From: a virus
DNA: 20,592 bases
Virus record (IMG/VR): IMGVR_UViG_3300026184_000118
Span: 1-20,592 of that record
Direction: 5' to 3' (one strand)
Shown here: in pieces, positions 1,960 to 15,220 of the stretch
Numbering within the stretch: the stretch's first letter is position 1
How the letters are laid out: each line of letters begins with the position of its first letter
The notes under the pieces: model-generated
What the model was told of the DNA's origin: nothing
The model's database searches: none
Seen by the model: the letters and a program-made list of their open reading frames with translations, nothing else
Made by a program: the position numbers and the translations under genes

Positions 1960-2424
1960 ATGGAAGAAGAAATTAAAACGTTCGATATTGATGAGGCCCT
2001 GGCGTCCCTGAGTTCCAAGCAATACGCTTGGTTCATCGGGATGCTGGAGGGGAAGACCGATATCGCTGCGTATCGTGCCGCGTATGACGCCGAAAACATG
2101 AATGACGCGCAGTGCTCCATCGAAGCCCACCGGCTACGCAATAACCCTAAGATTGCCGAATTGATAATCTACATGAGAATGAATGGCATTTACCAAGCCA
2201 TCGACGACCGCTTATCCCATCTAAGACGCCTCCGAGAACTCAGCGCCAGAGCAGAAAGTACGGGTAACTTCGGAGCAGCGGTAAACGCTGAAGTGAGCGC
2301 CGGGAAGGTCGAAGGCCACTATATTGAACGCCGGGAAGACGTGACCCCAACCAAGGCCAGAGACGACTGGCACGAAGAATTTGAGAAGTTCACCCGCATC
2401 GACACACCAAAGACCGTACAATGA
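1960..2424 (+). CDS. terS: terminase small subunit
   Basis: A 154-residue protein, typical in length for phage small terminases. Residues 17-70 carry the recognisable N-terminal DNA-binding pattern: LSSKQYAWFIGMLEGKTDIA, then AYRAAY, then an EAHRLRNNPKI helix. Small terminase subunits form rings that bind the packaging start site and regulate the large subunit. The middle is helical and oligomerisation-like; the C-terminus is charged and probably contacts the large subunit. Unusually, the large subunit lies 4.4 kb downstream at 6864 rather than next door. The start has only a poorly placed SD site; see the promoter entry. It couples by ATGA to a tiny membrane-protein gene. Confidence 0.85.
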   Translation: MEEEIKTFDIDEALASLSSKQYAWFIGMLEGKTDIAAYRAAYDAENMNDAQCSIEAHRLRNNPKIAELIIYMRMNGIYQAIDDRLSHLRRLRELSARAESTGNFGAAVNAEVSAGKVEGHYIERREDVTPTKARDDWHEEFEKFTRIDTPKTVQ

Positions 2425-2528
2425 CGCTCATCAGCGCATTAGCCATCTTGGGAGCCACAATTCTAGGCGGGCCGTTTGCAGGGGCTGTCACAATCCTCCT
2501 GGTCTTATTCGCTACCCATGATTTCTAA
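2421..2528 (+). CDS. tiny hydrophobic membrane protein (35 aa)
   Basis: A 35-residue peptide overlapping the small terminase stop as ATGA. Almost the entire length is hydrophobic with Gly and Ala (ALAILGATILGG, AGAVTILLVLFA), so it would form one long or two short membrane helices, ending in ATHDF. No function can be named. It may be a membrane-active phage peptide. Confidence 0.5.
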   Translation: MTLISALAILGATILGGPFAGAVTILLVLFATHDF

Positions 2529-2850: not shown

Positions 2851-2878
2851 TTGACAATGCCACATCAGGCGCTATACT
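2851..2878 (+). promoter_or_regulatory. strong sigma70 promoter
   Basis: A perfect TTGACA (2851-2856) and a TATACT (2873-2878) are separated by 16 bases, with an A-rich stretch just upstream. The predicted transcription start is about 2885, giving a leader of about 23 bases before an AGAGGAG SD site and the ATG at 2908. This is the best promoter-like sequence in the window and should drive the 94-residue protein, and perhaps the genes beyond. Confidence 0.75.
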
Positions 2879-3364: not shown

Positions 3365-3456
3365 TGTTTGATAAACCTTCTGAGCTGGCCGTGGTGGCCT
3401 TGATGGTGGCCGAGATTTCCTTGCTGCTGGCATCGGCCACAATCCTGCTGCTGTGA
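3364..3456 (+). CDS. tiny single-helix membrane protein (30 aa)
   Basis: A 30-residue peptide starting at the TAATG junction with the previous gene. After MFDKPSE it is almost entirely hydrophobic (LAVVALMVAEISLLLASA and on to the end), consistent with one transmembrane helix. An SD-like GGAGG is missing, but GGAG (3352-3355) and the coupled junction could allow translation. No function can be named. Confidence 0.4.
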   Translation: MFDKPSELAVVALMVAEISLLLASATILLL

Positions 3457-3630
3457 CTGAGCGTTTTTGGTCAGTCCTGGATGGCTGGCCGGGGATGTCC
3501 CGTTATCCGGGGATGAGGTTTATCTGCCTGCTAACGATTGGGAGCCGGTACGGTCATGTGGTGGGTGCTTCACGGTCGGGAGGCTGTGTCCTGATGTGCT
3601 GACCACGATCAGGCCCACTGAGAGCCAGTT

Positions 3631-3717
3631 ACAGGACACAACAGGCAAAAGCAAAGGGTAGGCAAGGGTAACAGCAGAGAGCGCGAGAGAGGCGCAGAGA
3701 AGGGGCCGGGACACCCC
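3631..3717 (+). repeat. T-depleted purine-rich tract with 10-base quasi-repeats
   Basis: Only two T residues occur in these 87 bases. Two consecutive decamers (GCAAAGGGTA at 3651 and GGCAAGGGTA at 3661) match at 8 of 10 positions. Three further decamers from 3676 to 3705 (AGAGAGCGCG, AGAGAGGCGC, AGAGAAGGGG) repeat in the same 10-base phase. A 10-base period places every unit on the same face of the helix, which suits cooperative protein binding. The function is inference only. Confidence 0.45.
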
Positions 3718-3775
3718 TTTGGAGTCCGGCTACGGGTGCTATACCCCCTCTTTAATCCAGCGAAATCAAAATGCC

Positions 3776-3804
3776 TTTCCCTCCCCTTATTCTTGTCATA
3801 CACT
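3776..3804 (+). promoter_or_regulatory. weak promoter-like sequence before the packaging and glycan operon
   Basis: TACACT (3799-3804) could serve as a -10 box, with a poor TTTCCC (3776-3781) 17 bases upstream. The layout after the -10 box resembles the strong promoter at 2851: a short AC-rich leader, then AGAGGAG and ATG. The -35 match is poor, so this may need an activator or may not be used. Confidence 0.25.
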
Positions 3805-3827
3805 AATCGAAACAGAGGAGACCTATC

Positions 3828-3998
3828 ATGGCGAAGAAAAAGTATGTTCCGATCCCTGATTTAATCACGCCCAAGAATCGGCCTAAAACGGCCAAGGATG
3901 TCAATTTAGGCTCTGGTATGGCGGATAACGCCAAAAATGCCATTCTAAAGCGCAAGCGCGAGATGGAGAAGCGGCTCAAAGAATTTAACAGTAAATGA
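3828..3998 (+). CDS. small basic lysine-rich phage protein (56 aa)
   Basis: The ATG at 3828 has an AGAGGAG (3814-3820) 7 bases upstream. The 56-residue protein begins MAKKKYVPIPDLITPKNRPK, has a Gly-containing turn (VNLGSGMADNAKNAI) and ends in a highly charged helix (KRKREMEKRLKEF). It could bind nucleic acid or another phage protein, but no function is known to me. It is the first gene of the overlapping operon that runs through the glycan enzymes into the large terminase, coupled by ATGA to the first glycosyltransferase. Confidence 0.65.
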   Translation: MAKKKYVPIPDLITPKNRPKTAKDVNLGSGMADNAKNAILKRKREMEKRLKEFNSK

Positions 3999-4621
3999 GC
4001 ATCCTTATTGCGACCCCTGGGTATGGTGGCCAAGTCACCCTCCCTTATTTCCATTCCTGCATGAATCTCAAGGAGGAGTTTCAGCGGGCGGGAATCGACC
4101 ATGACTGGCTAACGAATGCCCATGAGTCCCTAATTACCCGCGCACGCAACACAATGGTCTCGACCTTCCTGAAAACCCGATTTGACACCCTGCTTTTTAT
4201 TGATGCCGACATTGAGTTTCAGCCCGAAGACGTGGCTAAGTTGTGGAACCTCGACTGTGATATTGCCGTCGGGGCTTACCCGATGAAGCGTCTGGATAAA
4301 CCCTTATCCGCATGGCGAGGAGGGAAATTGGTCTCGATAGAAGGAGAGACAGAGCCTTTCGAGGTAGATTATGCTGGAACGGGGTTTATGATGATCAAAC
4401 GCGACTTATTGAACGAGATGATAAATCGCCACCCTGAGCTGGAGCATGAAGAGGGCTTTGTCGGGAAATGCTGGGCGCTGTTTAATACTATGGTATGGAA
4501 TGGGGTCTTTCTCTCTGAGGACTATGCTTTCTGTCAGCGGGCTCGGGATATGGGGAAGAAGATCATCTGCGATCCCACTATTAAGCTAATCCACCACGGT
4601 TCATATGCCTATGGGGCTTAG
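3995..4621 (+). CDS. GT-A fold glycosyltransferase, family 2-like
   Basis: A 208-residue protein that should transfer a sugar from a nucleotide-sugar donor to an acceptor. Visible marks are the N-terminal strand MSILIATPGYGG; an ESLITRARN stretch (44-52); the metal-binding DxD, DAD at 70-72 inside LLFIDADIEF; the YAGTGFMMIKR acceptor-side motif (126-136); an SED at 174-176 in the usual catalytic-acid position; and IHHGS (199-203). This arrangement matches compact phage and bacterial GT2/Anp1-like transferases. There is no membrane segment, so it is cytosolic. It overlaps the next gene by 17 bases. Donor and acceptor are unknown. Confidence 0.8.
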   Translation: MSILIATPGYGGQVTLPYFHSCMNLKEEFQRAGIDHDWLTNAHESLITRARNTMVSTFLKTRFDTLLFIDADIEFQPEDVAKLWNLDCDIAVGAYPMKRLDKPLSAWRGGKLVSIEGETEPFEVDYAGTGFMMIKRDLLNEMINRHPELEHEEGFVGKCWALFNTMVWNGVFLSEDYAFCQRARDMGKKIICDPTIKLIHHGSYAYGA

Positions 4622-5186
4622 TGCGCTAGGAATTAACCTTGCCCGCTGTCCCGAGGTTAAATCTCGCTCAGGGGTTTTATTGATCGTTGGGTCTGGGCGA
4701 TGTGTCTGGGATGATCTGGATAAAGTTCTCTCCAATGACGGAAACTATTACCGGGTCGGACCGGATGTGATGTGTCTCAATGATATGGTGATGCACTTCC
4801 CTGGAAAAGTCGATCATGTCTACTCCAATGACGAAAAAGAACTCCCAAAATGGATTGAAGCGCGAAGACCTCGGGCATTAAAAGACTTTCCTCACGCAAT
4901 CCTCCAACACACCTGCCAAAAGGGCAAAGGAAATCAAATTGTATGGCCCTGGCCGGGACATGGGACTTCAGGGTTGAACGCAGTTTATACCGGGCTTGCT
5001 CTGGGTTACGATGAGATTATTCTTGCGGGTATTCCGATGGACGGGTCGGGTCACTATTTCGACCCACCGTGGAAAGAGACTAACTACATTCCGATGGGGC
5101 GTTACTGGAAGATGGCCGCCGAAAAAGTCTTTGACGGCAAAGTGAAAAGTTTATCAGGACAGACCAAAGAGATTATCGATGGATGA
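4605..5186 (+). CDS. Rossmann-like glycan enzyme, DUF115/sialyltransferase-like
   Basis: A 193-residue protein. After a short N-terminus there is a hydrophobic strand with a Gly turn (VLLIVGSGR, 24-32), a CLNDMV segment (57-62), a central HGTSGLNAVYTGLALGY (119-135) and a strand IILAGIPMDGSGHYF (138-152). The GTSG turn and the IIL-x-GI-x-MDG strand recall the MAF/DUF115 proteins and the bacterial GT42 sialyltransferases, which share such a nucleotide-binding half. I cannot separate these from sequence alone, so a nucleotide-sugar-using role is an inference. The overlapping position between a glycosyltransferase and a sulfotransferase supports a glycan role. The ATG at 4611 is an alternative start. 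Confidence 0.55.
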   Translation: MPMGLSALGINLARCPEVKSRSGVLLIVGSGRCVWDDLDKVLSNDGNYYRVGPDVMCLNDMVMHFPGKVDHVYSNDEKELPKWIEARRPRALKDFPHAILQHTCQKGKGNQIVWPWPGHGTSGLNAVYTGLALGYDEIILAGIPMDGSGHYFDPPWKETNYIPMGRYWKMAAEKVFDGKVKSLSGQTKEIIDG

Positions 5187-5787
5187 GCCAATTTTAATCG
5201 TGATGATGGGTCGATCTGGGTCGTCATTAACCGCAGGGATTTTTGCCAATCATGGAGTGTGGGTGGGGAAGCAATCTAATCCTTCCGAGATCAATCCCAA
5301 GGGATTCTTTGAGAATAAAGAATTAAAGGCCACGCTACGCAACTGGTTTGGTATGTCCTACCATACAATCCCCGATCCGATAGAGGGCTGGCGGGGAAAG
5401 GTGGAGCAAATTATAACAAAGCAAGGCTACACGGAAGGCCCTTGGCTGTATAAGCACGGGGCGAACTTCTGGAAGGTCTGGAATGAATTTAACCCTAAAT
5501 GGGTCTTGGTATGGCGAGAACCCGAAGCGATTTTACGCTCAATACGACGCGCCAGAATCCTTAATAAGTTTTCAGATGAAGAAATCCGCCACTCAATCGC
5601 GCTTCACCATCAACAAATGGGGTTGATTAAAAATGTTCATGGTGCGGTCGATGTGTACCCTGATGAGGTCGTAAAAGGCGACCACACGTCTATTGCAAAT
5701 GCAATCGAGTATTGCGGAATTGAATATAATCCTTACATAACAGAACAATTTATTGAACCGGAGTACTGGCATGAAGCGAGTCGGTGA
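5179..5787 (+). CDS. sulfotransferase
   Basis: A 202-residue cytosolic protein of the PAPS-dependent sulfotransferase family. At the N-terminus, ILIVMMGRSGSSLTAGIF (5-22) has the P-loop-like 5'-phosphosulfate-binding motif GRSGSSLTA (11-19). WVLVWREPEAILRSIRRA (108-125) has the Arg and Ser that bind the 3'-phosphate (R113, S121). The family moves a sulfo group onto hydroxyl or amino groups of sugars, lipids, peptides or small molecules. The substrate is unknown, but glycosyltransferase genes on both sides favour a sugar. It overlaps its neighbours by 8 bases upstream and 17 downstream. It is short but carries both cofactor motifs, so it may be active. Confidence 0.8.
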   Translation: MDEPILIVMMGRSGSSLTAGIFANHGVWVGKQSNPSEINPKGFFENKELKATLRNWFGMSYHTIPDPIEGWRGKVEQIITKQGYTEGPWLYKHGANFWKVWNEFNPKWVLVWREPEAILRSIRRARILNKFSDEEIRHSIALHHQQMGLIKNVHGAVDVYPDEVVKGDHTSIANAIEYCGIEYNPYITEQFIEPEYWHEASR

Positions 5788-6316
5788 AGTTATAAAACGT
5801 GTTAAGCATATTCAAAGACCAGTCGTTTGTGAGATCGGTATTTTTAGAGGTCGCATGTCAAGAATGTTGTTAGAACAGCACCCTATGATGTTATATATGA
5901 TTGACCCGTGGTCAGCGCAGTACGGCGATGACTATAAGGATACCGGGGATTTTCACTCGGAGCTTTCTGAGCAAGATCAGAACCGTTACTATCGAATGGC
6001 GAAAGATGCGGTGCAGGGATTTGATGCGCATATAGTAAGAAAGTTCTCCTCACAAGCCGCGAGTGATTTTGACGATGGCTTTTTTGATTTAGTTTTTATT
6101 GACGGCGATCACTCATATCGAGGCGTAAGAGACGACATTCAGAACTATTCGCCAAAAGTAAAAAATGGCGGATATATAGGCGGGCATGACTACGCGAATT
6201 TTGATGGTGACTGGAAGTTCGGTATCTCTGTTTGTCAGGCCGTCAATGAATTTATCGAACAAAACGGGCTAGAACTTGAGCTTGGAGAGGATTATACATG
6301 GTTCGCGCAATTATAG
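5771..6316 (+). CDS. class I SAM-dependent methyltransferase (Methyltransf_24-like)
   Basis: ATG 5771 is chosen because GGAG (5760-5763) precedes it by 7 bases; a TTG at 5753 in the same frame has no such site. The 181-residue protein shows VVCEIGIFRG (motif I, 18-27), an acidic motif II region (MIDPWSAQ, 43-50), LVFIDGDHSYRGVRDDI (107-123) and GGYIGGHDY (133-141). This FIDGDHSY and GGHDY pairing is typical of the Methyltransf_24 type, which often acts on sugars or other small molecules. A sugar O-methyltransferase role is the likely reading given its neighbours, but the substrate is not shown. It overlaps the next gene by 19 bases. Confidence 0.8.
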   Translation: MKRVGEVIKRVKHIQRPVVCEIGIFRGRMSRMLLEQHPMMLYMIDPWSAQYGDDYKDTGDFHSELSEQDQNRYYRMAKDAVQGFDAHIVRKFSSQAASDFDDGFFDLVFIDGDHSYRGVRDDIQNYSPKVKNGGYIGGHDYANFDGDWKFGISVCQAVNEFIEQNGLELELGEDYTWFAQL

Positions 6317-6885
6317 TCCGACAAGGCAATAAATACGACGAATGCTATACAAAAGCCCTGAAGAGACAGCTCAAAGAACAAGGTATCGACGCGCTTGTCC
6401 TTGGCGATGGACCAGACGCAGACGTTAAATTAAGGCACGGATACGAGGGTTGGTGGGCGAAGCTGGAATTATTTTCTCCTGATCTCAAGGCCTACAGGCC
6501 GTTTCTCTATCTCGATCTGGATTCTATTGTTCTTGGGGCGATTCCCGATATTGATTCTGAAAAGTTTATGATGTGTGAAGAATGGAATCCGACCTGCCAT
6601 AAGCGAAATGTTTGCCAGTCATCAATGATGTGGATTCCCAAAGAAGTGGATTATATCTGGGAGTCGATAGATGCGCAGACAATTAAAACGAAAGGTGGCG
6701 ATCAAGCCTGGCTCTGTCAATTTAATGAGGAATTTTTAACCGAAAAATATCCTTATCTTGTTGGATCGTATAAATTCGGGGATATGGAAGAGCCAAAACA
6801 CAATGTTGTGACATTTCACGGGCGCCCAAAAATGAAAGACGCGGGCGGCTGGGCGGAGATGGTATGGAAAGCCTACAGTACCTAA
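6298..6885 (+). CDS. DxD glycosyltransferase, GT8-like
   Basis: A 195-residue protein. Recognisable blocks are GWWAKLELFSP (51-61), the strand and metal motif FLYLDLDSIVLG (69-80) with DLD at 73-75, GGDQAWL (133-139), SYKF (157-160) and VTFHGRPK (171-178). These are the ordered motifs of a small GT-A transferase group seen in phages and marine bacteria, related to GT8. It should be a cytosolic metal-dependent transferase; donor and acceptor are unknown. It is the last cassette gene, and its final 22 bases overlap the large terminase gene, so its expression is probably tied to packaging genes. Confidence 0.75.
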   Translation: MVRAIIVRQGNKYDECYTKALKRQLKEQGIDALVLGDGPDADVKLRHGYEGWWAKLELFSPDLKAYRPFLYLDLDSIVLGAIPDIDSEKFMMCEEWNPTCHKRNVCQSSMMWIPKEVDYIWESIDAQTIKTKGGDQAWLCQFNEEFLTEKYPYLVGSYKFGDMEEPKHNVVTFHGRPKMKDAGGWAEMVWKAYST

Positions 6886-8408
6886 GAGAGCTTCACTTTT
6901 TATCCCAGTGGAAGCCTCAAGAATTTCGTAAAGAGGCCCAGAAGCTGATTGATAACGGGGTCGCGGATTCCGCGATCAAAGCCCTTGAGGAGATGCGGGA
7001 TTATGGGAAACTCGATCTCTACACCCCTTATGGACTTCCAAAGACACTCGAAATACCCGGCTGGTCAAAAAAGCCCTGGCAGCTCGACTTTCATAACCTT
7101 GGCTCGACCCACAAAGAGCGCATGATAATCGCGGCCAACGGGACCGGAAAAAGTATCTCCGGAGCCTATGAAACCGCACTTCATCTAACCGGGTTATACC
7201 CTGATTGGTGGGAGGGGTATCGGTTCAAGCGTGCTCCTAAATTCTGGGTTGGGTCGATCACCAACGAAATCCAGCGCGACTATATCCAAACCCTGCTGAT
7301 TGGCCCCGACCTGAATGATGGCCTGGGGCAAGGATTCGTCCCCAAGGAGCGTATCTCCGGGAAGATCCACGTTCGCCAATGTGGACTGAACGGAGTTGTC
7401 GATACCTTCCGTGTCAAACACGTCTCAGGGGGAACGTCAGTATGCCAGATGAAGACGTATGAGCAGGGCTGGCGTAAATGGCAAGCCTCGGCTCCTGACG
7501 GGATATGGCTTGACGAGGAGCCTGATGAGAACGTATCTGACCAGAAAGATATTTTCACTGAGGTTCAAACCCGTTTGGTCCGAACATCGGGGATTCTTTA
7601 TGTCACATTTACCCCTCTATTGGGGATGACGACCTTGACAGACCACTTCCTTAACCCTAAAGCTAAGGGAATCACTGCAATTACAGCGACTTGGGACGAC
7701 GTGCCTCATTTACAGGAAGAAGACAAACAACGCTTGATTGATACCTACCCAGATTATCAGGTCGAGGCCCGCACCAAGGGCGTTCCGATGATGGGTGAAG
7801 GGCGTGTATTTACGACGGCAGAAAGCGAAATTACCGTTCAGCCCTTTGATATTCCAGCACATTTTGCAAGGATTAAGGGCATCGACTTTGGGATAGACCA
7901 CCCTGCCGCGGTCGTGGATGTAGCATGGGACCGGGACAAAGAAATTATGTACCTAACCCGAGCCAAGAAAAAACGAAATATGGAGTCGGAGGAACATGCA
8001 GAGCTGATTAACGAGGTTGACTCATGGGTGCCCGTGGCCTGGCCGCACGATGGGACAAACCGGGATAAAGGCTCAGGAGAAAGACTAAAAGACCGCTATG
8101 CGAAACATGGTTGTAAATTGCTTTCTAAATCAGCACGATACAAAAACGATAAGGGCGGGGGACAGCCAGTTGAGCCGATTATTATGGAAGTTCAGGAAAT
8201 GTTGAAGTCTGGAAGCCTTAAAGTTTTCTCAAATTGCTCTGATTTCTTCGATGAGTATCGAAATTACCACAGAAAAGACGGAAAATTGTCAAAAACACGG
8301 GATGACGTATTAAAAGCGTTGTTTTATGCTATTATGATGAGACGATATGCGGCGACAAGAGCCGCTGGACCTCCAAAAACAGCAAACATGGTGCCGATGC
8401 GAGCATGA
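6864..8408 (+). CDS. terL: terminase large subunit
   Basis: The ATP-driven DNA packaging motor and headful or site-specific nuclease. In 514 residues it shows a helical N-terminus, the Walker A motif AANGTGKS (90-97), Walker B with catalytic acid GIWLDEEP (213-220, D217 and E218), a coupling-type YVTFTP (246-251), and an RNase H-like nuclease domain starting KGIDFGIDHPAA (338-349, first acid D341), with likely further acids at D396 (WPHDGT) and D480/D481 (TRDDVLKALFYA). All the expected catalytic positions are present. GGAG (6855-6858) sits 5 bases before the ATG. It works with the small subunit at 1960 and the portal at 8734. Confidence 0.93.
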   Translation: MESLQYLRELHFLSQWKPQEFRKEAQKLIDNGVADSAIKALEEMRDYGKLDLYTPYGLPKTLEIPGWSKKPWQLDFHNLGSTHKERMIIAANGTGKSISGAYETALHLTGLYPDWWEGYRFKRAPKFWVGSITNEIQRDYIQTLLIGPDLNDGLGQGFVPKERISGKIHVRQCGLNGVVDTFRVKHVSGGTSVCQMKTYEQGWRKWQASAPDGIWLDEEPDENVSDQKDIFTEVQTRLVRTSGILYVTFTPLLGMTTLTDHFLNPKAKGITAITATWDDVPHLQEEDKQRLIDTYPDYQVEARTKGVPMMGEGRVFTTAESEITVQPFDIPAHFARIKGIDFGIDHPAAVVDVAWDRDKEIMYLTRAKKKRNMESEEHAELINEVDSWVPVAWPHDGTNRDKGSGERLKDRYAKHGCKLLSKSARYKNDKGGGQPVEPIIMEVQEMLKSGSLKVFSNCSDFFDEYRNYHRKDGKLSKTRDDVLKALFYAIMMRRYAATRAAGPPKTANMVPMRA

Positions 8409-8737
8409 AAGTCCCAAAAACGACCAAAGAACTCGAAGAATTTTGCCGGATTAAGGGATTGCGCCTACAAGATCGCATTTCTCATCCCGGTGGAGAAATT
8501 TATATAGCTGAAACCGATCTGGAGATGGATAACCGCCGAGAATTTCCGTGGGGTTATTACCAGGTTGGTTATTTTCTAGTCAACAAGCTATCCAAAGGCA
8601 AGTTTCTTGGCGGGAGATGGATGGATTTTGACGCCATGCACGATTCTGATAAGGGGTGGACGCAAGAGACGAAGCGAAAAGCCCGAATTAACGTAGCAAA
8701 AGAGGAAGCGGCCAAAGTCCTTGAGGTTTTACAATGA
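8405..8737 (+). CDS. hypothetical protein between terminase and portal (110 aa)
   Basis: A 110-residue protein, ATGA-coupled at both ends, to the large terminase and to the portal. It has an N-terminal charged helix (TTKELEEFCRIKGLRL), a beta-rich middle with many aromatic residues (GEIYIAETDLEMD, PWGYYQVGYFLVNKL, GGRWMDF) and a long C-terminal helix (KARINVAKEEAAKVLEVL). No catalytic or membrane motif is visible and I do not recognise a family. Its position suggests a role in packaging or head assembly, but that is only context. Confidence 0.65.
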   Translation: MKVPKTTKELEEFCRIKGLRLQDRISHPGGEIYIAETDLEMDNRREFPWGYYQVGYFLVNKLSKGKFLGGRWMDFDAMHDSDKGWTQETKRKARINVAKEEAAKVLEVLQ

Positions 8738-10527
8738 AAAAACTCCACAAAAAACATTTTGACACGCTGGCCGAGTATATCCAGCAGGAATACACTCGAA
8801 GAAGCAAGAAGCGGGGCGATCTGGAAAAACAATGGGAGGATATTGACCGACAGCTTAAAATGAAGCCGGATACCTACCATAAGCTCGACGCCAAGGGGAA
8901 TCCTGATAAAAACAAAGCATGGATGCCCGAGATGGAACTTCCATTGCAGGCCCAGGCTCTTGAAATATTGACCGCTGATGCACGCAGACTGCGATCTGCT
9001 AATACCCGCCCGTGGTTTGCTGCTCACTCAGTCTTAACTGATGATTTTCTTGACGAAATTGACTTCACATCGATTGCCGCAGGGGATAAAACGGGCGTCC
9101 CAACGCAATTCGATCAAAACGACATCGACCAAATTATTGCTGGAACAATGATGCACTGGCAACGCCAGTACAATTTCCATGACAACGTGGATATGATTGA
9201 TGCCGAAGCATTCAAGTATGGGCTTGGGGTCGGCAGAGGTCGGTTGGTCACAAAAAGCGTCTTTATGCACACCGCAAAAGGGGTTGTTAAGCAGGACCAG
9301 AAAATTCCGGTTTTGTTCCCTCGCTCGATAAAAAATACCTATCCTGACGACCGCTCACACGTCCTGATGAACGAGGGCTATATGTTGGGCGGGATGGAAA
9401 TCACAGCCAAGTCACAACTCCTTGAAGACGTAAAGATGGCAGCCAAGAAGGGCAAAAAAGACCCTGCCGATGAGGATGGCGGCTGGATGACTGAACCCTT
9501 CAAGAATCTCAAGGGCAAAAAGGACGGCACGATCGAGGTGATTGAGGCTGAGGGTGACTTCGTAATCCCAAGAAGCTCCGATACCATTACTTTGAGTAAC
9601 TATATTATTACTGTGGCAGTGGGAGAAAGTAACCCAACAATTATTCGGGCGCGTCGCCGAAATACTCCTTACAGCACATTGATCTACTTCCCCTATCACA
9701 TTGAGCATATAGATAGCCCTTACGCCACCTCTCCGCTGATGAAAGGTCGCCCAATTCAGATTGCGGCGACAGACTCAATGAACCGCCTGAGTATGCTGGC
9801 AGCCATGCACTCTCAACCGCCGGTCAAGTACGACAAAGACAATCCAGATTTTGCCTCTACAGGAGGGCCCTTGGTTTACCCTGGAGCGCAATGGCCGGAC
9901 ACGAACGTCATAATGGAGGTGATTGGCGACCCTTCAGCTATGATGCAGCTCTATATTAACTACATCAAACAGTACGAGGATGTGACAGGGGTAAATTCTC
10001 CGAGATTGGGCGCACAGACAAAATCCCACACCACCGCCTACGCCAAAGACGCGGAATTGACCCGTGGAACCATGAGAACCGTTGACTACTCAACGAGTTG
10101 CCTGAATGGCCCATTGGCAAAATGGCTAACGATGGCCTATGATATGGGCAGGCGGGAAATGAAAAATGATACGGTTTATATTGACAAATACCGTTCATTC
10201 GTCGAAATTGGCAAAAAGCACCTTCCTGAGAAGGTCATTTTCGAGGCATTTGGGGCCGGAGCCCCAGCCGACGAGCAGGTCAAACAGCAAGAGCGAATGA
10301 ACGCCTTGAAACTGGCGATGCAGGTTGACCAGATGGAAGTCCAGCTTGGCAGAGAGCCTCAGATGGACTTACAGGCGGTCAAAGAAGAAATCTTGAGAAA
10401 CGGAGGTTGGACAGACATTGAATCTTTCTTCAAAGCAGAGGCAATTTCTGGTCTCCCTGAAGGCGGACCCGCGATGGGAGGAACTCCTGGATTTGTTACG
10501 CAGGAGCCCGGAGACATGCCGGTATAA
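8734..10527 (+). CDS. portal protein
   Basis: A 597-residue protein in the classical place after the large terminase and before scaffold and capsid. Portal proteins form a 12-fold ring at one head vertex through which DNA enters and leaves. The N-terminal helices (IQQEYTRRSKKRGDLEKQWE), the central IEHIDSPYATSPLMKGRPIQ and TDSMNRLSMLAAMHSQPPVK stretches, and the TGVNSPRLGAQTKSHTTAYA region correspond to podovirus-type portals. The final part is a helical EQVKQQERMNALKLAMQVDQ barrel-like segment, then a Gly/Pro-rich flexible end. The last 110 bases are also read in a second frame by the next gene. The call rests on size, order and pattern. Confidence 0.88.
   Translation: MKKLHKKHFDTLAEYIQQEYTRRSKKRGDLEKQWEDIDRQLKMKPDTYHKLDAKGNPDKNKAWMPEMELPLQAQALEILTADARRLRSANTRPWFAAHSVLTDDFLDEIDFTSIAAGDKTGVPTQFDQNDIDQIIAGTMMHWQRQYNFHDNVDMIDAEAFKYGLGVGRGRLVTKSVFMHTAKGVVKQDQKIPVLFPRSIKNTYPDDRSHVLMNEGYMLGGMEITAKSQLLEDVKMAAKKGKKDPADEDGGWMTEPFKNLKGKKDGTIEVIEAEGDFVIPRSSDTITLSNYIITVAVGESNPTIIRARRRNTPYSTLIYFPYHIEHIDSPYATSPLMKGRPIQIAATDSMNRLSMLAAMHSQPPVKYDKDNPDFASTGGPLVYPGAQWPDTNVIMEVIGDPSAMMQLYINYIKQYEDVTGVNSPRLGAQTKSHTTAYAKDAELTRGTMRTVDYSTSCLNGPLAKWLTMAYDMGRREMKNDTVYIDKYRSFVEIGKKHLPEKVIFEAFGAGAPADEQVKQQERMNALKLAMQVDQMEVQLGREPQMDLQAVKEEILRNGGWTDIESFFKAEAISGLPEGGPAMGGTPGFVTQEPGDMPV
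10402..10406 (+). promoter_or_regulatory. ribosome binding site that decides a TTG start
   Basis: A perfect GGAGG inside the portal gene lies 11 bases before the TTG at 10418, which opens the following gene in another frame. It is the only strong SD site in the region, and no in-frame ATG occurs before 10568. Confidence 0.45.
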
Positions 10528-10654
10528 ACCCGATCCGACCGCCGAAGAAGAAAAGGTAAAAAGCAAAATGATTTACGAAAGTGGCCGTTTTGACGAAAAC
10601 GACCGCTTACTAACCATCCTCAAGGGTGAAAATTTGGAGGAAAACAATGAGTGA
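10418..10654 (+). CDS. small phage protein, TTG start inside the portal gene (78 aa)
   Basis: A 78-residue protein whose first 110 bases overlap the portal gene in another frame. The N-terminus reads SSKQRQFLVSLKADPRWEEL followed by LDLLRR; the C-terminus reads EEEKVKSKMIYESGRFDENDR then LLTIL. This KQRxFL-LKxxPxWxxL helix with a later SGRxDE motif is a pattern I associate with small uncharacterised phage proteins in the portal-scaffold interval, which supports translation from the TTG. An ATG further down (10568) would remove most of it. The stop overlaps the scaffold start by 8 bases. Function unknown. Confidence 0.65.
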   Translation: MNLSSKQRQFLVSLKADPRWEELLDLLRRSPETCRYKPDPTAEEEKVKSKMIYESGRFDENDRLLTILKGENLEENNE

Positions 10655-11231
10655 GCAAGCCGTGGCTAACGAAACCGATGGCTCTGAAAATCAGAGTACT
10701 GAGGAAAGTGGCGCACAGGACGAGCTGGATTCCCTGTTAAGTGAATATGAGCAGGAGACCAGCGAAACTGGTGGACAACAGCAACAGGAAGACTCAAATG
10801 AGAACAATCAGGGGTATATGTCTCCTGATGTTCAGCGGATTCTTGAGCGTGAGACGCAAAACGACATTAAAGATGCGTCAAACGCGATAAAAGAGGAATC
10901 CGGTTTAACGCTTCCTGATTCGGTATTCAAGGGCGTACTCCATGCGAGCGTGGAGGGTGATCCAAGAGCAATGCGACTGTGGGCAAACAGGCATAATGAC
11001 CAGAAAGGCTGGAACGCCTATTTGTCGAAGGTCGCAAAGAATCTCGCGGACGAAATGAAGTCCCTCCCCGATCAAGGGGCCACGTCAGACCGTGAAGCCG
11101 TCGAAGCTGCTGTCCGAAATGCGTCAACGCATCAGCCCAGCGCGCAGGATGAGCCCGATGTAGCGAGTATGTCCGATGTGGACTTTGCTCAATACAAAAT
11201 GAAGCTCGCTCGAGGCGCTAAAAAGGGGTGA
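10647..11231 (+). CDS. putative scaffolding protein (194 aa)
   Basis: ATG 10647 follows GGAGG (10636-10640) by 6 bases; an earlier in-frame ATG at 10626 lies inside the previous gene without such a site. The protein has a strongly acidic, Gln- and Glu-rich disordered first 60 residues, a helical centre (VQRILERETQNDIKDASNAI, then a DPRAMRLWANRHNDQKGWNAY stretch), and a basic C-terminal helix (FAQYKMKLARGAKKG). An acidic head with a short basic C-terminal helix that docks on coat protein is typical of phage scaffolds. The position just before the major capsid gene supports the call. No protease motif is seen. Confidence 0.75.
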   Translation: MSEQAVANETDGSENQSTEESGAQDELDSLLSEYEQETSETGGQQQQEDSNENNQGYMSPDVQRILERETQNDIKDASNAIKEESGLTLPDSVFKGVLHASVEGDPRAMRLWANRHNDQKGWNAYLSKVAKNLADEMKSLPDQGATSDREAVEAAVRNASTHQPSAQDEPDVASMSDVDFAQYKMKLARGAKKG

Positions 11232-11252
11232 TGCTCATTTAGGAGAGCTATC

Positions 11253-12332
11253 ATGGCACTTACTGTATCAGCAACAGATAGTGAACTGCCGAAGCCGGTC
11301 AACACTATCTTTAAACAAACTTTGCTTCGTAACGCCAAGGTCCGGTGCCCCTATTTCATGGGAACTCAGCCTGGCAATGTGGAACGTAATCGCGGGACCG
11401 CTACCTGTACCTGGCGGCGTATTGAAAACCTGTCGGCCTCAACTTCGGCACTGTCTGAGTTGACTGGCAACGCTTCGTACATGCAGGGCAGAACCCCCGC
11501 CGCACTGTCCGTCACTGATGTGACTGCTACGGTTTCCAAGTACGGCAACTTCGTTATTCTTAATGAAGAAGCTGACTTGTTTAACTTTAACGGTCAGATG
11601 GATAAAATCATGGAGGTTATCGGGATCAATGCAGGGCAGTCCTTGAATCAGCTACAGCGTAATATTGTCGAAGACAACATTACCTTGATTCAGGCCAGCG
11701 GCGATTCTTCTGACGGGGCTACCGATTCCGCCATCACGCTCAATGATATCAAGAAGGTTGTGAATACGCTGGATAAGAACTCAGCGATGACGTTCACTCC
11801 GATGTCAATGGGCTCCGAGAATATCGGCACAACCCCGATGCTGCCCGCTTACTGGGCCTTAACTCACCCTGACGTGGCGATTGATGTTGCTGGCCTAACA
11901 GGCTTTAAGTCTGTTGAGACCTACGCAGGTCAACTATCTACTGCAATGGGCGAGTTTGGCGCTCTGACTGTGGCTGGCCGGGCTGTACGGTTCATCTCAT
12001 CCGAGGATGCCTCAGTGGACGCCGACGCCGGTGCAACGCTGGGCTCAACCGGGCTGAATGGTACGTCTTCCGTTGACCTCTACACCACTGTCATCTACGG
12101 GCGCGATTGCGTCGGTTCTGTTGGCTTTGGGGAAGAGTACCCGGATGGCACCTTCAGCGCCGGGGATGAGCTCGGGCCGGTAGATCTGATCGTCAAGGGA
12201 TTAGGCTCTGGCGGCACCTCCGATCCGTATGATGAAATCGCTACCATTGCTTGGAAAGCCTGGCATACTGGCGCAATTCTCAACCCCGCCTGGGGGCGAG
12301 GTATTCGCTCGGGTGCTACCGATCTGGGCTAA
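11253..12332 (+). CDS. major capsid protein, N4-gp56 family
   Basis: A 359-residue protein forming the head shell, HK97-like fold. The N-terminus (PKPVNTIFKQTLLRNA), the central E-loop-like region (NLSASTSALSELTGNASYMQ), the LNQLQRNIVEDNITL spine-helix region, and the C-terminal block DEIATIAWKAWHTGAILNPA followed by WGRGIRS correspond to the N4-gp56-type capsid family. AGGAG (11241-11245) lies 7 bases before ATG. By eye its GC content is higher than that of many neighbours. A strong terminator follows directly, consistent with high and separately controlled capsid expression. Confidence 0.9.
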   Translation: MALTVSATDSELPKPVNTIFKQTLLRNAKVRCPYFMGTQPGNVERNRGTATCTWRRIENLSASTSALSELTGNASYMQGRTPAALSVTDVTATVSKYGNFVILNEEADLFNFNGQMDKIMEVIGINAGQSLNQLQRNIVEDNITLIQASGDSSDGATDSAITLNDIKKVVNTLDKNSAMTFTPMSMGSENIGTTPMLPAYWALTHPDVAIDVAGLTGFKSVETYAGQLSTAMGEFGALTVAGRAVRFISSEDASVDADAGATLGSTGLNGTSSVDLYTTVIYGRDCVGSVGFGEEYPDGTFSAGDELGPVDLIVKGLGSGGTSDPYDEIATIAWKAWHTGAILNPAWGRGIRSGATDLG

Positions 12333-12371: not shown

Positions 12372-12899
12372 ATGGGACTTGAACGACTTATTTCTGACGA
12401 TTCACGAACACCGATTGAGAAACTTCGCAGGAAACAATTATGGGATATCGCAGATGCGTATGATCTGCCTTATCCTTCTGCTGCACCGAAAACAGTGATG
12501 ATACCGATTATTGAGTCAGCCGGGATTGATGTAACAAGACCTTTACCGACGGGTGAGAAACTGGTTCAGGAAATTCAAGTTGAAGACGAGGACGGAAAAG
12601 TCCATACAGATTTTGCGCCTGTGGAAAAACCACACGCCACACAAAACAAACAGATTGACTATAACGCTGTCATCGAAGCAAAAGCCAAAGCCGCAGAATC
12701 ACAAGACGAGCTAAAAGAAGCCAAAGACGAAATTGCCCGGATGCGAGAAAAGCTAGCTGAATTGGAGGCAGGAGAAAAATCGTTCTCTGATATGAAAATG
12801 CCAGAGCTACGTAAAGCCGCCAAAGAGAGCGGGATTAACTCCTTTGGTTTGAGCAAAAAAGATATTATAGAGAAGTTGGAAAATGGCGATAATCGTTGA
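12372..12899 (+). CDS. hypothetical coiled-coil protein with SAP-like ends (175 aa)
   Basis: An AGGAGG (12362-12367) sits 4 bases before ATG. Residues about 14-50 (PIEKLRRKQLWDIADAYDLP region) and 139-171 (SFSDMKMPELRKAAKESGIN then LSKKDIIEKLE) both look like short SAP or Rho-N-like helix-extended-helix modules. Between them lies an acidic linker and a clear heptad-like coiled coil (100-135, KAAESQDELKEAKDEIARM). Such modules bind nucleic acid or serve as protein anchors. The position after the capsid gene suggests a head-associated or head-completion role, but that is inference. It overlaps the adaptor gene by 17 bases. Confidence 0.65.
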   Translation: MGLERLISDDSRTPIEKLRRKQLWDIADAYDLPYPSAAPKTVMIPIIESAGIDVTRPLPTGEKLVQEIQVEDEDGKVHTDFAPVEKPHATQNKQIDYNAVIEAKAKAAESQDELKEAKDEIARMREKLAELEAGEKSFSDMKMPELRKAAKESGINSFGLSKKDIIEKLENGDNR

Positions 12900-13632
12900 A
12901 AGCGAAACCGGCTCAACCCCATCAGGCGGGTCGAAAACCTTGCTTAATGGGGTTAACGAGGTTCTAAAGCGCACTCAGGCTATCAGCAGTCAGAGTGAGC
13001 TGACCTCTTTGACCAGTTCAGCTAAACAGCCGAGCGTTGATATTGCGATTCAGGTTTTGAATGAGCTTGTCCACCAGCTTTATGACGAGGCAAAAATACC
13101 TACGCCCAATGGCGTTGGAACAAGCACTATAACGCTTATTGCAGACGACCGAGACTATGAGCTCCCTTCAGACCTCCTCCGTATCAGATACCCTCTGATC
13201 GACCAAACTAATTCGGATACGATCTACGAATACCCTGGCGGGTATAGTCAGTTGTTCAGCGATCAGGAAGAGCCCTCAAATTATACCGGCCAGCCTCATC
13301 TTGCCGCAATCCGCCCAACTGATGGGTATTTGTATCTTGACCGCGTACCAACCTCTACAGAAGCCGGGAAAACCTACACCTTCCTGTACGATAAAGAGTT
13401 AACTTTGGCGGAGGCTGGAGACACCTTTCCTTTTCGGGACACAGTATTTTGGGCTTTAATTCCCGCTGCCGCTCAAATGGTAAAATCTGAGATGCAAAAC
13501 AAGTTCAACGGCGGTCTATTTAAAATGAGTATGGGGCGGGCTGCAAGACTTTTAACGAGGACAGTTCCACAAAGCAGCTGGCTGCCTGACAGGACGGTGA
13601 CTGTTAAGGGAACCGACCCCTATGCCAACTAA
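12883..13632 (+). CDS. head-tail adaptor protein, SU10/gp6-like
   Basis: A 249-residue protein that should sit beneath the portal and join head to tail. It shows GVNEVLKRTQAISSQSEL near the N-terminus, then a helix AIQVLNELVHQLYDEAK, the core ADDRDYELPSDLLRIRYPLI, and a late helical block (FWALIPAAAQMVKSEMQNKF). The N-terminal LNxVLxRTGxI-like helix with a YxLPxDxLRI strand is typical of podovirus adaptor proteins. Overlaps with both neighbours (17 and 11 bases) and the order capsid, adaptor, nozzle support it. The family name is from pattern, not a search. Confidence 0.75.
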   Translation: MAIIVESETGSTPSGGSKTLLNGVNEVLKRTQAISSQSELTSLTSSAKQPSVDIAIQVLNELVHQLYDEAKIPTPNGVGTSTITLIADDRDYELPSDLLRIRYPLIDQTNSDTIYEYPGGYSQLFSDQEEPSNYTGQPHLAAIRPTDGYLYLDRVPTSTEAGKTYTFLYDKELTLAEAGDTFPFRDTVFWALIPAAAQMVKSEMQNKFNGGLFKMSMGRAARLLTRTVPQSSWLPDRTVTVKGTDPYAN

Positions 13633-15220
13633 ATTCGGGCCAGAGGAAAATGCCGTCATTATCCGCTTTGGCGGAGGGGTTAATAGCACGGCAGCCGACG
13701 ATGAGATAGCAGAACGCGAGGCTGCTGCCGGAGATAATTTTACGCTCGATGTGCAATCCTCTACGTTCCAACCAAGGTCTGCATTCGATAAACTTGGAAC
13801 AACCCCTAATGGCTCGGAGATTCGGGGATTTGCCAACCTGCAAAAGACAGACGGCACAGTTTCGATGCTTGTTCAGGCTGGCACGGAAGTCTATGAGTGG
13901 GACGGATCAAGTTTTTCTTCTTCCAAAGGGACGGTAAGCTCTACTGCGCAGCTTCGTGGGCCACTGTCGCAAAACTGGCTTTTGGACGATGAGGTCATAA
14001 TCACAGACCTGAATCTTCAGGAGCCCGTTATGAAGTGGGATGGTACGACATTATCGACCGTTTCATTCACCGACGAATCATCAGCATCATGGACAGGAGA
14101 ATTTCGGGCAAAATACGCCACAATATCCAGCGAGCGAGTTGTTTTCGGTAACGTTTATGACAATGGCTCGACCTTCCCTCATCTGATTGTCGGGGCAAAG
14201 CGAGGCGATTATACAGTACTATCTGTGTCTCAGCGCCCATCCTCTGCATTGAGCGCAGAAGATCCGTTTTTTCTTATCCAGCCTGATTACAAGCCTGTTA
14301 ACGGGCAGGTTCAGGCATTTGGAATACTAGTCACTTCATCGAAAAACGGTGAACTGTTCAAACTAACTGGCGCAAATGCCACTGACTTTGCTTTTGAGAG
14401 CTTTTATCCTCGTTCTGGTGTGGCTGGAGATGAGGGGATGGTCTTTACAGGTAACGATATAATTTATGGGCGGCCCGGCCGGATTGAGAGCCTGAAGGCT
14501 TCAGATAAGTTCGGCGATACCGAGAATGATGACCTCTCAATAAAAATCTCCAGTAGCATTGAAAGTATTGCTGGATGGACGTTGGCTTATAACCAGAGAA
14601 ACCAGCGAATTTATTGTTTCCCTGATGGGGATACGAAGATGTGGGTTTTGTTTAAGCCAATGTTAAACACAGAACTATCTCCATGGGCAAGATGGATAAC
14701 AGCTCACTCGACTTCATTTCAGCCGACGACTGTGATGAGCATGTTAGATCCTGGGGACAACCTTGAATATACTTTTTTTGGTGATTCCTCTGGAAACCTT
14801 TATAGGCTTGAGGGTTCTGGCTCATCAGGGGATGGCGGGACTGATATAATCAGGACAACTCGGTCTTCAGCGCAGTTTAGGGCAAATTTGGATGCAATCG
14901 CTTATCAGGTTCAAGGATGGATTAAATATAAGTCCCTTGATGAGGCCGATATTGACATTACGATACTATACAATGGCGTCGAGGTTTTTGACCAAAGCAT
15001 CTCAGTGACAATACCCGCATCATCGGGGAGGAAGGTTTACGGTGGAGGATACTATTACAGCGACGCGAACTACTACTCAGAATCCCTCTCTGGGCGACTC
15101 ACACGCAGAGAGTTCCAAATCCCGCACGGGGCGGAAGAGTTCCAGGTCAGGATCACGTACAACGGAACAGCTAGGCCAGAAATCCAGGAGATCGGACTCC
15201 GCTTCGAGGAAACCGCCTAG
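13622..15220 (+). CDS. tail nozzle / tail stabilisation protein
   Basis: A 532-residue, beta-rich protein with many short strands and turns. It opens with NAVIIRFGGGVNSTAADDEI and a DNFTLD block, which is typical of podovirus nozzle or DNA-stabilisation proteins (P22 gp10-like and SU10-like). The repeated EVYEWDG, VMKWDG and NLYRLEG-type strands suggest a beta-propeller. Its C-terminal third forms a jelly-roll-like end (IDITILYNGVEVFD to VRITYNG). It should close the short tail below the adaptor. It overlaps the adaptor by 11 bases, and its last 179 bases are also read in a second frame by the next gene. Confidence 0.8.
   Translation: MPTKFGPEENAVIIRFGGGVNSTAADDEIAEREAAAGDNFTLDVQSSTFQPRSAFDKLGTTPNGSEIRGFANLQKTDGTVSMLVQAGTEVYEWDGSSFSSSKGTVSSTAQLRGPLSQNWLLDDEVIITDLNLQEPVMKWDGTTLSTVSFTDESSASWTGEFRAKYATISSERVVFGNVYDNGSTFPHLIVGAKRGDYTVLSVSQRPSSALSAEDPFFLIQPDYKPVNGQVQAFGILVTSSKNGELFKLTGANATDFAFESFYPRSGVAGDEGMVFTGNDIIYGRPGRIESLKASDKFGDTENDDLSIKISSSIESIAGWTLAYNQRNQRIYCFPDGDTKMWVLFKPMLNTELSPWARWITAHSTSFQPTTVMSMLDPGDNLEYTFFGDSSGNLYRLEGSGSSGDGGTDIIRTTRSSAQFRANLDAIAYQVQGWIKYKSLDEADIDITILYNGVEVFDQSISVTIPASSGRKVYGGGYYYSDANYYSESLSGRLTRREFQIPHGAEEFQVRITYNGTARPEIQEIGLRFEETA
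15025..15035 (+). promoter_or_regulatory. ribosome binding site that decides a GTG start
   Basis: GGGGAGGAAGG is a strong SD-like run inside the nozzle gene, 6 to 10 bases before the GTG at 15042. It is the main support for translation of the next gene beginning inside the nozzle gene. Confidence 0.4.

Follow-up and report, generated by a model that had tools for sequence, protein, structure and literature searches.

A viral five-gene cassette between the terminase genes probably adds a sulfated, methylated glycan to the virus's own particle

The window analysed here is the whole 20,592-nucleotide stretch of the viral record IMGVR_UViG_3300026184_000118 (IMG/VR), and its packaging and head region is summarized in Table 1. 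Between the two terminase genes, at 3995-6885, all five plus-strand ORFs of a putative glycan cassette were confirmed at the coordinates given in an earlier note on this DNA. Successive genes overlap by 17, 8, 17 and 19 bp and the last one, GT5, runs 22 bp into TerL, bearing out the tight coupling described there, while at the 5' side a small basic ORF overlaps GT1 by 4 bp. The placement between the terminase genes is also correct, since TerS was located upstream of the cassette and the identity of TerL is certain from its sequence; about 1.5 kb filled with small ORFs intervenes between TerS and the cassette. Each of the five ORFs has independent homologues in other phages (E 1e-14 or better), which excludes chance ORFs. 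No transmembrane segment was found in the five proteins (maximum 19-residue hydropathy 1.41 or less), and an Rfam search gave no match.

Table 1. Features of the packaging and head region of the window
Feature	Position	Strand	Evidence or remark
TerS, small terminase subunit	1960..2424	+	phrog_1595 'terminase small subunit', E 2e-4; phrog_51, 0.03
Sigma70-like promoter, TTGACA-16-TATACT	2851..2878	+	11/12 matches
56-aa basic ORF opening the overlapping gene chain	3828..3998	+	good Shine-Dalgarno, AGAGGAG
GT1, GT-A glycosyltransferase, DAD motif	3995..4621	+	phrog_1574
ROS2, putative Rossmann transferase, sialyltransferase (GT42/CstII)/MptE-like	4605..5186	+	profile comparisons; 0 curated families
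ST3, PAPS-dependent sulfotransferase-like	5179..5787	+	GRSGSSL and R...S motifs; Foldseek; homologues in PF13469
MT4, SAM methyltransferase, Methyltransf_24	5771..6316 (ATG)	+	PF13578; TTG at 5753 as alternative start
GT5, GT8-like glycosyltransferase, LDLD motif, P1 PmgQ family	6298..6885	+	phrog_1962
TerL, large terminase subunit	6864..8408	+	PF17289, 2.5e-18; PF03237, 8e-16
Portal / head-tail adaptor	8734..10527	+	phrog_332, 8.5e-7
Major capsid protein (MCP), candidate acceptor	11253..12332	+	phrog_1357, 5e-43

Family, profile and structure searches support the enzyme classes proposed previously, namely two glycosyltransferases, a Rossmann-like enzyme, a sulfotransferase and a SAM methyltransferase. 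GT1 matched the full-length profile of phrog_1574 (E 1.2e-42, residues 2-205) and showed weak matches to PF03452 and PF01501. Its homologues were found also in early or replication regions, a location that speaks against a role on the virion. GT5 matched the glycosyltransferase family phrog_1962 (3e-20 over residues 4-169), conserves the motifs LYLDLD (DxD-type), GDQ.W and SYK...FHG.PK, and has homologues in phage P1 (PmgQ, 4e-12), in phiNP (4e-13) and in the phage locus L090 (4e-20). Sequence searches of the PDB with GT5, ST3 and MT4 returned nothing relevant, single-protein scans of viral contigs with GT5 and ROS2 gave no usable match, and scans of genome contigs with ROS and ST detected no relatives.

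The protein ROS2 matched none of the curated families. When an eight-member profile was used, its best PDB match was CstII (E 0.012), restricted to the segment [T]SG...LGY..I.L.G., and comparison with hhalign related it to the group of P1 PmgO and L084 (P 4.5e-5) and to the P1 PmgP group (0.01). The AlphaFold model obtained from three sequences (pLDDT 46.6) was too poor for meaningful fold matches in the PDB. In locus L125 a CMP-Kdo synthetase and an arabinose-5-P isomerase lie in one run with homologues of GT5, MT4 and ROS2, an arrangement that fits the use of a CMP-sugar donor by ROS2.

ST3 displays the two sites of a PAPS-dependent sulfotransferase, the 5' phosphosulfate loop (R-S-G-[ST]-S) as an N-terminal GRSGSSL and the 3' phosphate site (R...S) as WREPEAILRS, with R113 and S121. 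Residues R12, S13, S16, R113 and S121 are invariant in alignment A2, and the pattern is repeated in an eight-sequence alignment. For its predicted model, of moderate quality (pLDDT 65.5), the nine top Foldseek hits were all sulfotransferases (best E 3e-3); structural comparison (VIA) gave a Z of 10.4 with 139 aligned residues at 3.0 Å, a small margin over the guanylate kinases, which reach 9.0. ST3 alone scored 12.6 bits against PF13469 (cut-off 27 bits), while its direct homologues in L142, L124 and L170 pass that cut-off with 40.3, 30.4 and 27.2 bits; a further relative, in L129, was matched by phmmer at 1e-29. A second scan of viral contigs with an ST alignment recovered only the three marine contigs already found.

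MT4 belongs to PF13578 (8e-16; 59.2 bits against a curated cut-off of 26.3) and shares 36% identity with its homologue in L125. Considering that PHROGs labels its family 'DNA methyltransferase', that phage glycosyltransferases are able to glycosylate DNA and that the cassette adjoins packaging genes, the glycosyltransferases, the methyltransferase and the sulfotransferase might decorate a modified base before packaging. We regard such hypermodification of DNA or nucleotides as very improbable: Methyltransf_24 is a small-molecule-type family, and a thymidylate-synthase-like hydroxymethylase (PF00303) was absent from 12 module-bearing records in a search that detected its control. Neither was a hydroxylase-like gene present among the window proteins scanned, from a record that lacks most early genes; in the Tet_JBP search the control itself gave no match.

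The expectation that related phages would share the cassette between TerS and TerL was not supported. None of 80 TerL relatives carries any of the five genes, and conservation of the block at this site was therefore rejected; in the close relatives that were inspected, a TerS-like ORF lies directly 5' of TerL. In unrelated phages, subsets of the five families are present as compact modules, and modules of ROS, GT5, MT and ST genes recur within head gene blocks. In L161, overlapping homologues of GT5, MT4 and ROS2 stand in a row directly after genes for the MCP and a head-tail adaptor, and in L102 GT5 and MT4 homologues lie directly 5' of TerS-TerL with a ROS2 homologue behind the MCP. In Pkon1, L090, L091, L098-L101, L137 and L179, ROS2 homologues likewise follow or adjoin the MCP, a GT5::ROS fusion lies between MCP and portal in L092, and in L124, L129, L142, L150 and L170 an ST3 homologue overlaps or directly adjoins a connector-type (head-tail) gene. 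A ROS-type gene was found near GT5, always on the same strand, at 48 of 80 GT5 loci (31 of 47 clusters at 70% identity), and at 0 of 80 control loci selected by TerL.

The marine contigs L084/L085 hold a ROS-ST-MT-GT5 run of the same classes in the same order. That unrelated phages repeat this order, or fuse members of these families, supports the proposal that the genes act together. The earlier note had also called a glycosyl, sulfo and methyl set unusual, which has to be corrected: at least 7 of the 80 GT5 loci, and three marine contigs besides, also hold a cassette with a sulfotransferase, so that a unique combination was rejected, and the pairing of methyl and glycosyl genes is known in mycobacteriophages. 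The complete five-gene set was seen only in this virus, whereas the cassette type is recurrent. No description of such modules was found in the literature searched, which lay mostly outside subscription journals and did not include Freeman 2023 itself.

Late expression of the cassette, for which gene overlap is the ground, is uncertain. The sigma70-like site in the gap between TerS and the cassette, of a kind expected 0.12 times per 20.6 kb strand, could let the block be transcribed separately from TerS; it could also uncouple its expression from the late genes, a point against a coat on the virion. The cassette might then be cargo of the moron type, transcribed from a promoter of its own and useful to a lysogen, either by changing the cell surface or by making a secreted glycoconjugate, with its overlap with TerL a matter of chance; this would agree with the TerL relatives devoid of the block and with P1 counterparts that are dispensable for plaque formation. 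We consider this quite improbable given the 22 bp shared by GT5 and TerL, the lack of terminator-like sites between them except for one weak internal match, and the several different points of late operons at which relatives are inserted.

What each enzyme does, the sequence in which they act, the acceptor, the time of expression and the advantage to the phage are all inferred from the genes; on this footing we propose that the virus probably covers its particles in a sugar chain bearing sulfate and methyl groups. The best reading, which we hold with somewhat better than even confidence, is a late cassette for building this glycan on a virion (head) protein. The particle is favoured as the target because related genes are found repeatedly within the head-building blocks of other phages, and the earlier preference for virion decoration gains support from this setting. 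Inserted into the packaging/head operon, the cassette would be expressed together with the head genes, and its soluble enzymes would act in the cytoplasm of the infected cell, assembling a short sugar chain on a protein of the virion, for which a capsid or other head protein is the most likely candidate. GT1 and GT5 would add sugars from host nucleotide-sugars, and ROS2, which resembles CMP-sugar-dependent sialyltransferases, would add a further one, probably acidic and CMP-activated. MT4 would O-methylate and ST3 O-sulfate the chain, with host SAM and PAPS as donors, and the resulting coat would alter the charge and the surface recognition of the particle.

The main rival is a late modification of the host surface. 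On this view the enzymes would change a glycan on the infected cell's surface, such as the O-antigen or the capsule, and so either keep sister virions from being wasted on that cell and its debris or shut out competitors. This is a common interpretation of phage glycosyltransferases, for example of those of pelagimyophages as modifiers of the host O-chain (PMC7029224), and cell-surface glycans also bear sulfation, methylation and Kdo-type sugars. Moreover, the closest syntenic cassette with four classes, that of L084/L085, adjoins curli genes (CsgF/CsgG) and not head genes, which counts against the virion as target. We nevertheless judge this rival rather unlikely, since the cassette encodes neither a membrane protein nor a flippase or lipid carrier enzyme and its relatives lie repeatedly among genes for capsid, connector, portal and terminase, as in the mycobacteriophage precedent for virion glycosylation. 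Serotype conversion of the gtrABC type was rejected, as neither a membrane flippase nor a membrane glycosyltransferase is among the five proteins.

To our knowledge, the only tailed phages with demonstrated virion glycosylation are a few mycobacteriophages. If decoration of the virion is true, the recurrence, within head gene blocks of unrelated phages, of a module of sialyltransferase-like, PmgQ-type glycosyltransferase, sulfotransferase and methyltransferase genes would mean that glycan coats, possibly sulfated, are general among phage particles, and the P1 genes pmgO, pmgP and pmgQ would gain a testable function. Such a coat could influence how stable the particles are, how they adhere to mucus or polysaccharide, how the immune system recognizes them and how phages are purified. 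More tentatively, we suggest as a possibility on the doubtful side that such 'head glycan' cassettes are widespread and undescribed, equipping the particles of tailed phages with glycans that are sulfated, methylated and CMP-ulosonate-containing. ROS2 would in that case found a new GT42-like, capsid-linked transferase family, the set reported here being the fullest so far.

Among known systems, the mycobacteriophages Corndog (gp35-38) and Che8 (gp108-110) likewise combine several glycosyltransferases with an O-methyltransferase, which in Che8 is, in our own reading of the sequence, the C-terminus of gp108. In Corndog an O-methyltransferase and three glycosyltransferase genes lie between portal and protease (PMC4351075), and both this cassette and that of the window virus are in or beside a structural operon, the glycan of the window virus being predicted from its genes. 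The virions of Che8, Corndog and Myrna are glycosylated (PMC12363180), and capsid and tail-tube proteins are reported to be glycosylated (PMC4351075, PMC12363180, PMC12619734 citing Freeman 2023). Unlike these genes, the present cassette adds a sulfotransferase and a ROS-type gene, and its insertion point is TerS/TerL. GT1, ROS2 and GT5 gave no phmmer match to Che8 gp108-110 at E<0.01, a dissimilarity that weighs against the virion reading; the cassette may therefore work like that system and is not filed as a member of it.

The P1 genes pmgO-pmgP-ppp-pmgQ, named 'putative morphogenetic', share with the cassette the homology between PmgQ and GT5, and PmgO and PmgP resemble sialyltransferases and MptE, apparently in common with ROS2; the phiNP pair lies just 5' of a minor tail gene, terS and terL. 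In contrast to the cassette, the P1 and phiNP genes include no sulfotransferase or methyltransferase, and P1 adds a protein phosphatase, ppp. That pmgO, pmgP and pmgQ are non-essential (PMC10695390) is a further point against the virion reading.

The glycosyltransferase islands of pelagimyophages (L084/L085-type), with their four classes in the order already described, carry ST and GT5 genes clearly homologous to those of the cassette (1e-23 and 3e-18). They differ in their methyltransferase, which is FkbM (PF05050) and not Methyltransf_24, in a ROS of the MptE/PmgO branch, in a GT8 as first glycosyltransferase and in their location. Finally, A197 of the archaeal virus STIV is a viral GT-A enzyme linked to the glycosylated STIV capsid; its similarity to GT1 is weak (E 0.006), with homology not established, and unlike the cassette it is a single gene.

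The window is a record of 20,592 bp from an uncultured virus. After TerS, its genes run through small ORFs, a gap of ~370 bp, the 56-aa ORF, the five cassette ORFs (GT1, ROS2, ST3, MT4 and GT5, in that order) and TerL, and continue with a 110-aa ORF and the portal/head-tail adaptor; a position probably occupied by a scaffold gene comes next, before the gene for the major capsid protein (MCP). All successive genes between 3828 and the portal gene start overlap, by 4-22 bp, and the cassette-internal overlaps of 17, 8, 17 and 19 bp (with MT4 starting at ATG 5771) agree with those given in the earlier note. No convincing terminator was found between the cassette and TerL. Since an unusually good sigma70-like promoter precedes the cassette (0.12 equally good sites expected by chance per strand of the record), the block might also be transcribed on its own. 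The gap itself (3456-3828) holds no convincing gene on either strand and no Rfam match.

Features surrounding the cassette in the window
Feature	Position	Strand	Remarks
TerS	1960-2424	+	phrog_1595, E 2e-4
35-aa strongly hydrophobic ORF	2421-2528		maximum 19-residue hydropathy 2.07; 4-bp overlap with TerS stop
sigma70-like promoter	2851-2878	+	TTGACA-16-TATACT; between TerS and cassette
56-aa ORF	3828-3998	+	directly 5' of the five cassette ORFs
TerL	6864-8408	+	directly 3' of cassette
Major capsid protein	11253-12332	+	phrog_1357

GT1 falls in phrog_1574 (1e-42), contains a DAD motif and matches GT-A families weakly; MT4 matches Methyltransf_24 (8e-16), and GT5 belongs to phrog_1962 (3e-20) and is homologous to PmgQ of phage P1. 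ROS2 matched no Pfam, PHROG or NCBIfam model. The best PDB match of a profile of eight ROS2 relatives is the sialyltransferase CstII (GT42; E 0.012), in an alignment covering the SG...LGY..I.LAG. signature, and hhalign linked ROS2 to a group comprising P1 PmgO and the ROS protein of the marine contig L084 (P 4.5e-5), the latter scoring near the MptE-like cut-off, and to PmgP (P 0.01). From these profile comparisons we label ROS2 as putatively GT42/MptE-like. ST3 has the sulfotransferase loop GRSGSSL and an R...S site, and sulfotransferases are the first structural matches of its predicted model (VIA: Z 10.4, against Z 9 for guanylate kinases, a small margin); its close homologues (1e-29 to 6e-25) match PF13469, three ST3 homologues exceeding the cut-off. 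By hydropathy, a membrane segment is absent from all five proteins.

According to the established biochemistry of these enzyme classes, GT1 and GT5 would transfer sugars from nucleotide-sugars, ROS2 would probably transfer a CMP-sugar, and MT4 and ST3 would perform O-methylation and O-sulfation with SAM and PAPS as donors, respectively. If ROS proteins use CMP-sugars, CMP-ulosonic acid synthesis is expected beside a CstII-like transferase, as in the viral stretch L125, whose order is TerL, CMP-Kdo synthetase (3e-28 to PDB 3jtj), arabinose-5-phosphate isomerase (1e-31; the pair at 3732-5897), GT5, an MT4 homologue (3e-35, 36% identity), a radical SAM and a GT2-like gene (both assigned by eye) and a ROS2 homologue (5e-15). 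This single case suggests that ROS proteins may use CMP-sugar donors.

Not one of the five cassette families occurs in 80 viral contigs whose TerL is related to that of the window, and in the closest relatives inspected a TerS-like ORF lies immediately 5' of TerL. The five-gene order that the earlier note proposed to look for at this site in related phages is absent from these 80 contigs and, because these relatives are without the five families, the block is most likely an insertion in the lineage of the window virus, not common by descent at the site.

Elsewhere, GT5 relatives are encoded by at least 560 stretches in viral contigs. A same-strand ROS-type gene occurs in 48 of the best 80 GT5 loci (31 of 47 clusters at 70% identity), within 1.5 kb in 42 of them, Methyltransf_24 in 10 and an ST3-type gene in 7; the same models gave 0/80 on control loci that were selected by TerL and had a comparable combined length, a contrast and not a calibrated probability because these controls come from one viral lineage group. 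Recognised same-strand structural genes occur in at least 28 of the best 80, a lower bound since just 23 structural models were applied. GT1 fits the set least well: its family is missing from the remaining module-bearing records, save that in which it was initially detected, and elsewhere occurs in early regions.

Two marine contigs found via ST3, L084 and L085, carry GT8, ROS (MptE-like), ST, FkbM methyltransferase and GT5, arranged from ROS onwards like ROS2-ST3-MT4-GT5; homology is clear for ST (1e-23) and GT5 (3e-18). Curli-secretion genes, CsgF and CsgG, lie near the glycan cassette (12752-13980 in the pelagimyophage-like L084; also in L085), and are likewise reported for pelagimyophages (PMC7029224). 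ROS2 relatives adjoin or directly trail the MCP gene in Paracoccus phage Pkon1 and in six viral stretches (L090, L091, L098, L099, L100, L101), L090 showing the run MCP, virion structural protein, ROS, GT5 and a second GT. In L092 one ORF between MCP and portal fuses GT5 to part of a ROS domain, and in L161 GT5, MT24 and ROS overlap in series 3' of MCP and head-tail adaptor. L102, from the contig of L099, has overlapping GT5 and MT4 homologues (the latter 2e-14) followed by another methyltransferase, TerS, TerL and portal, with a ROS2 homologue behind MCP; its TerL (10130-12160) contains a LAGLIDADG homing-endonuclease-like insert (PF14528 2e-7, PF05204 1e-5), probably an intein. An ST3 homologue overlaps or abuts a virion structural/connector-related gene (phrog_302, phrog_37884), followed by connector-type genes, in L124, L129, L142, L150 and L170, with an MCP-type gene also present in L124 and L170. 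Large glycan cassettes lie within the head gene blocks of L124, L129, L142 and L170; they comprise radical SAM and several GT and MT genes along with one or two sulfotransferases. In P1 (L095, 3144-5702), the glycosyltransferase gene pmgQ is preceded by pmgO, three genes away, and pmgP, two genes away, in what looks like a coherent glycan module among 'putative morphogenetic' genes; the pmgO and pmgP families (phrog_4603 and phrog_2111) cross-match, and the two appear to be paralogous sialyltransferase/MptE-like genes.

Module insertion points vary (TerS/TerL gap, before TerS, MCP/connector, MCP/portal, behind portal); many nonetheless recur within the head/packaging block, which points to a virion component as the acceptor of the cassette enzymes. 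Modification of the host surface is possible, given that the nearest four-class cassette, that of L084/L085, adjoins curli genes and that pelagimyophage GTs were interpreted as O-chain modifiers by Zaragoza-Solas et al. (PMC7029224). DNA modification is less likely, as a thymidylate-synthase-like enzyme was found in none of 12 module-bearing records.

Virion decoration by glycosyl and methyl genes of a structural operon is already known in principle. The literature searched, outside which most subscription papers (including Freeman 2023) lie, gave no description of the sulfotransferase or the ROS2 family, nor of a cassette placed between TerS and TerL or a ROS-GT5 module of this breadth. Between its portal and protease genes, Corndog encodes an O-methyltransferase alongside three GTs (PMC4351075), and glycosylated proteins are reported in Che8, Corndog and Myrna (PMC12363180), with capsid and tail tube named as the proteins concerned (PMC12619734). 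In mycobacteriophages, such a structural-operon context of GT and MT genes is borne out by glycosylated proteins.
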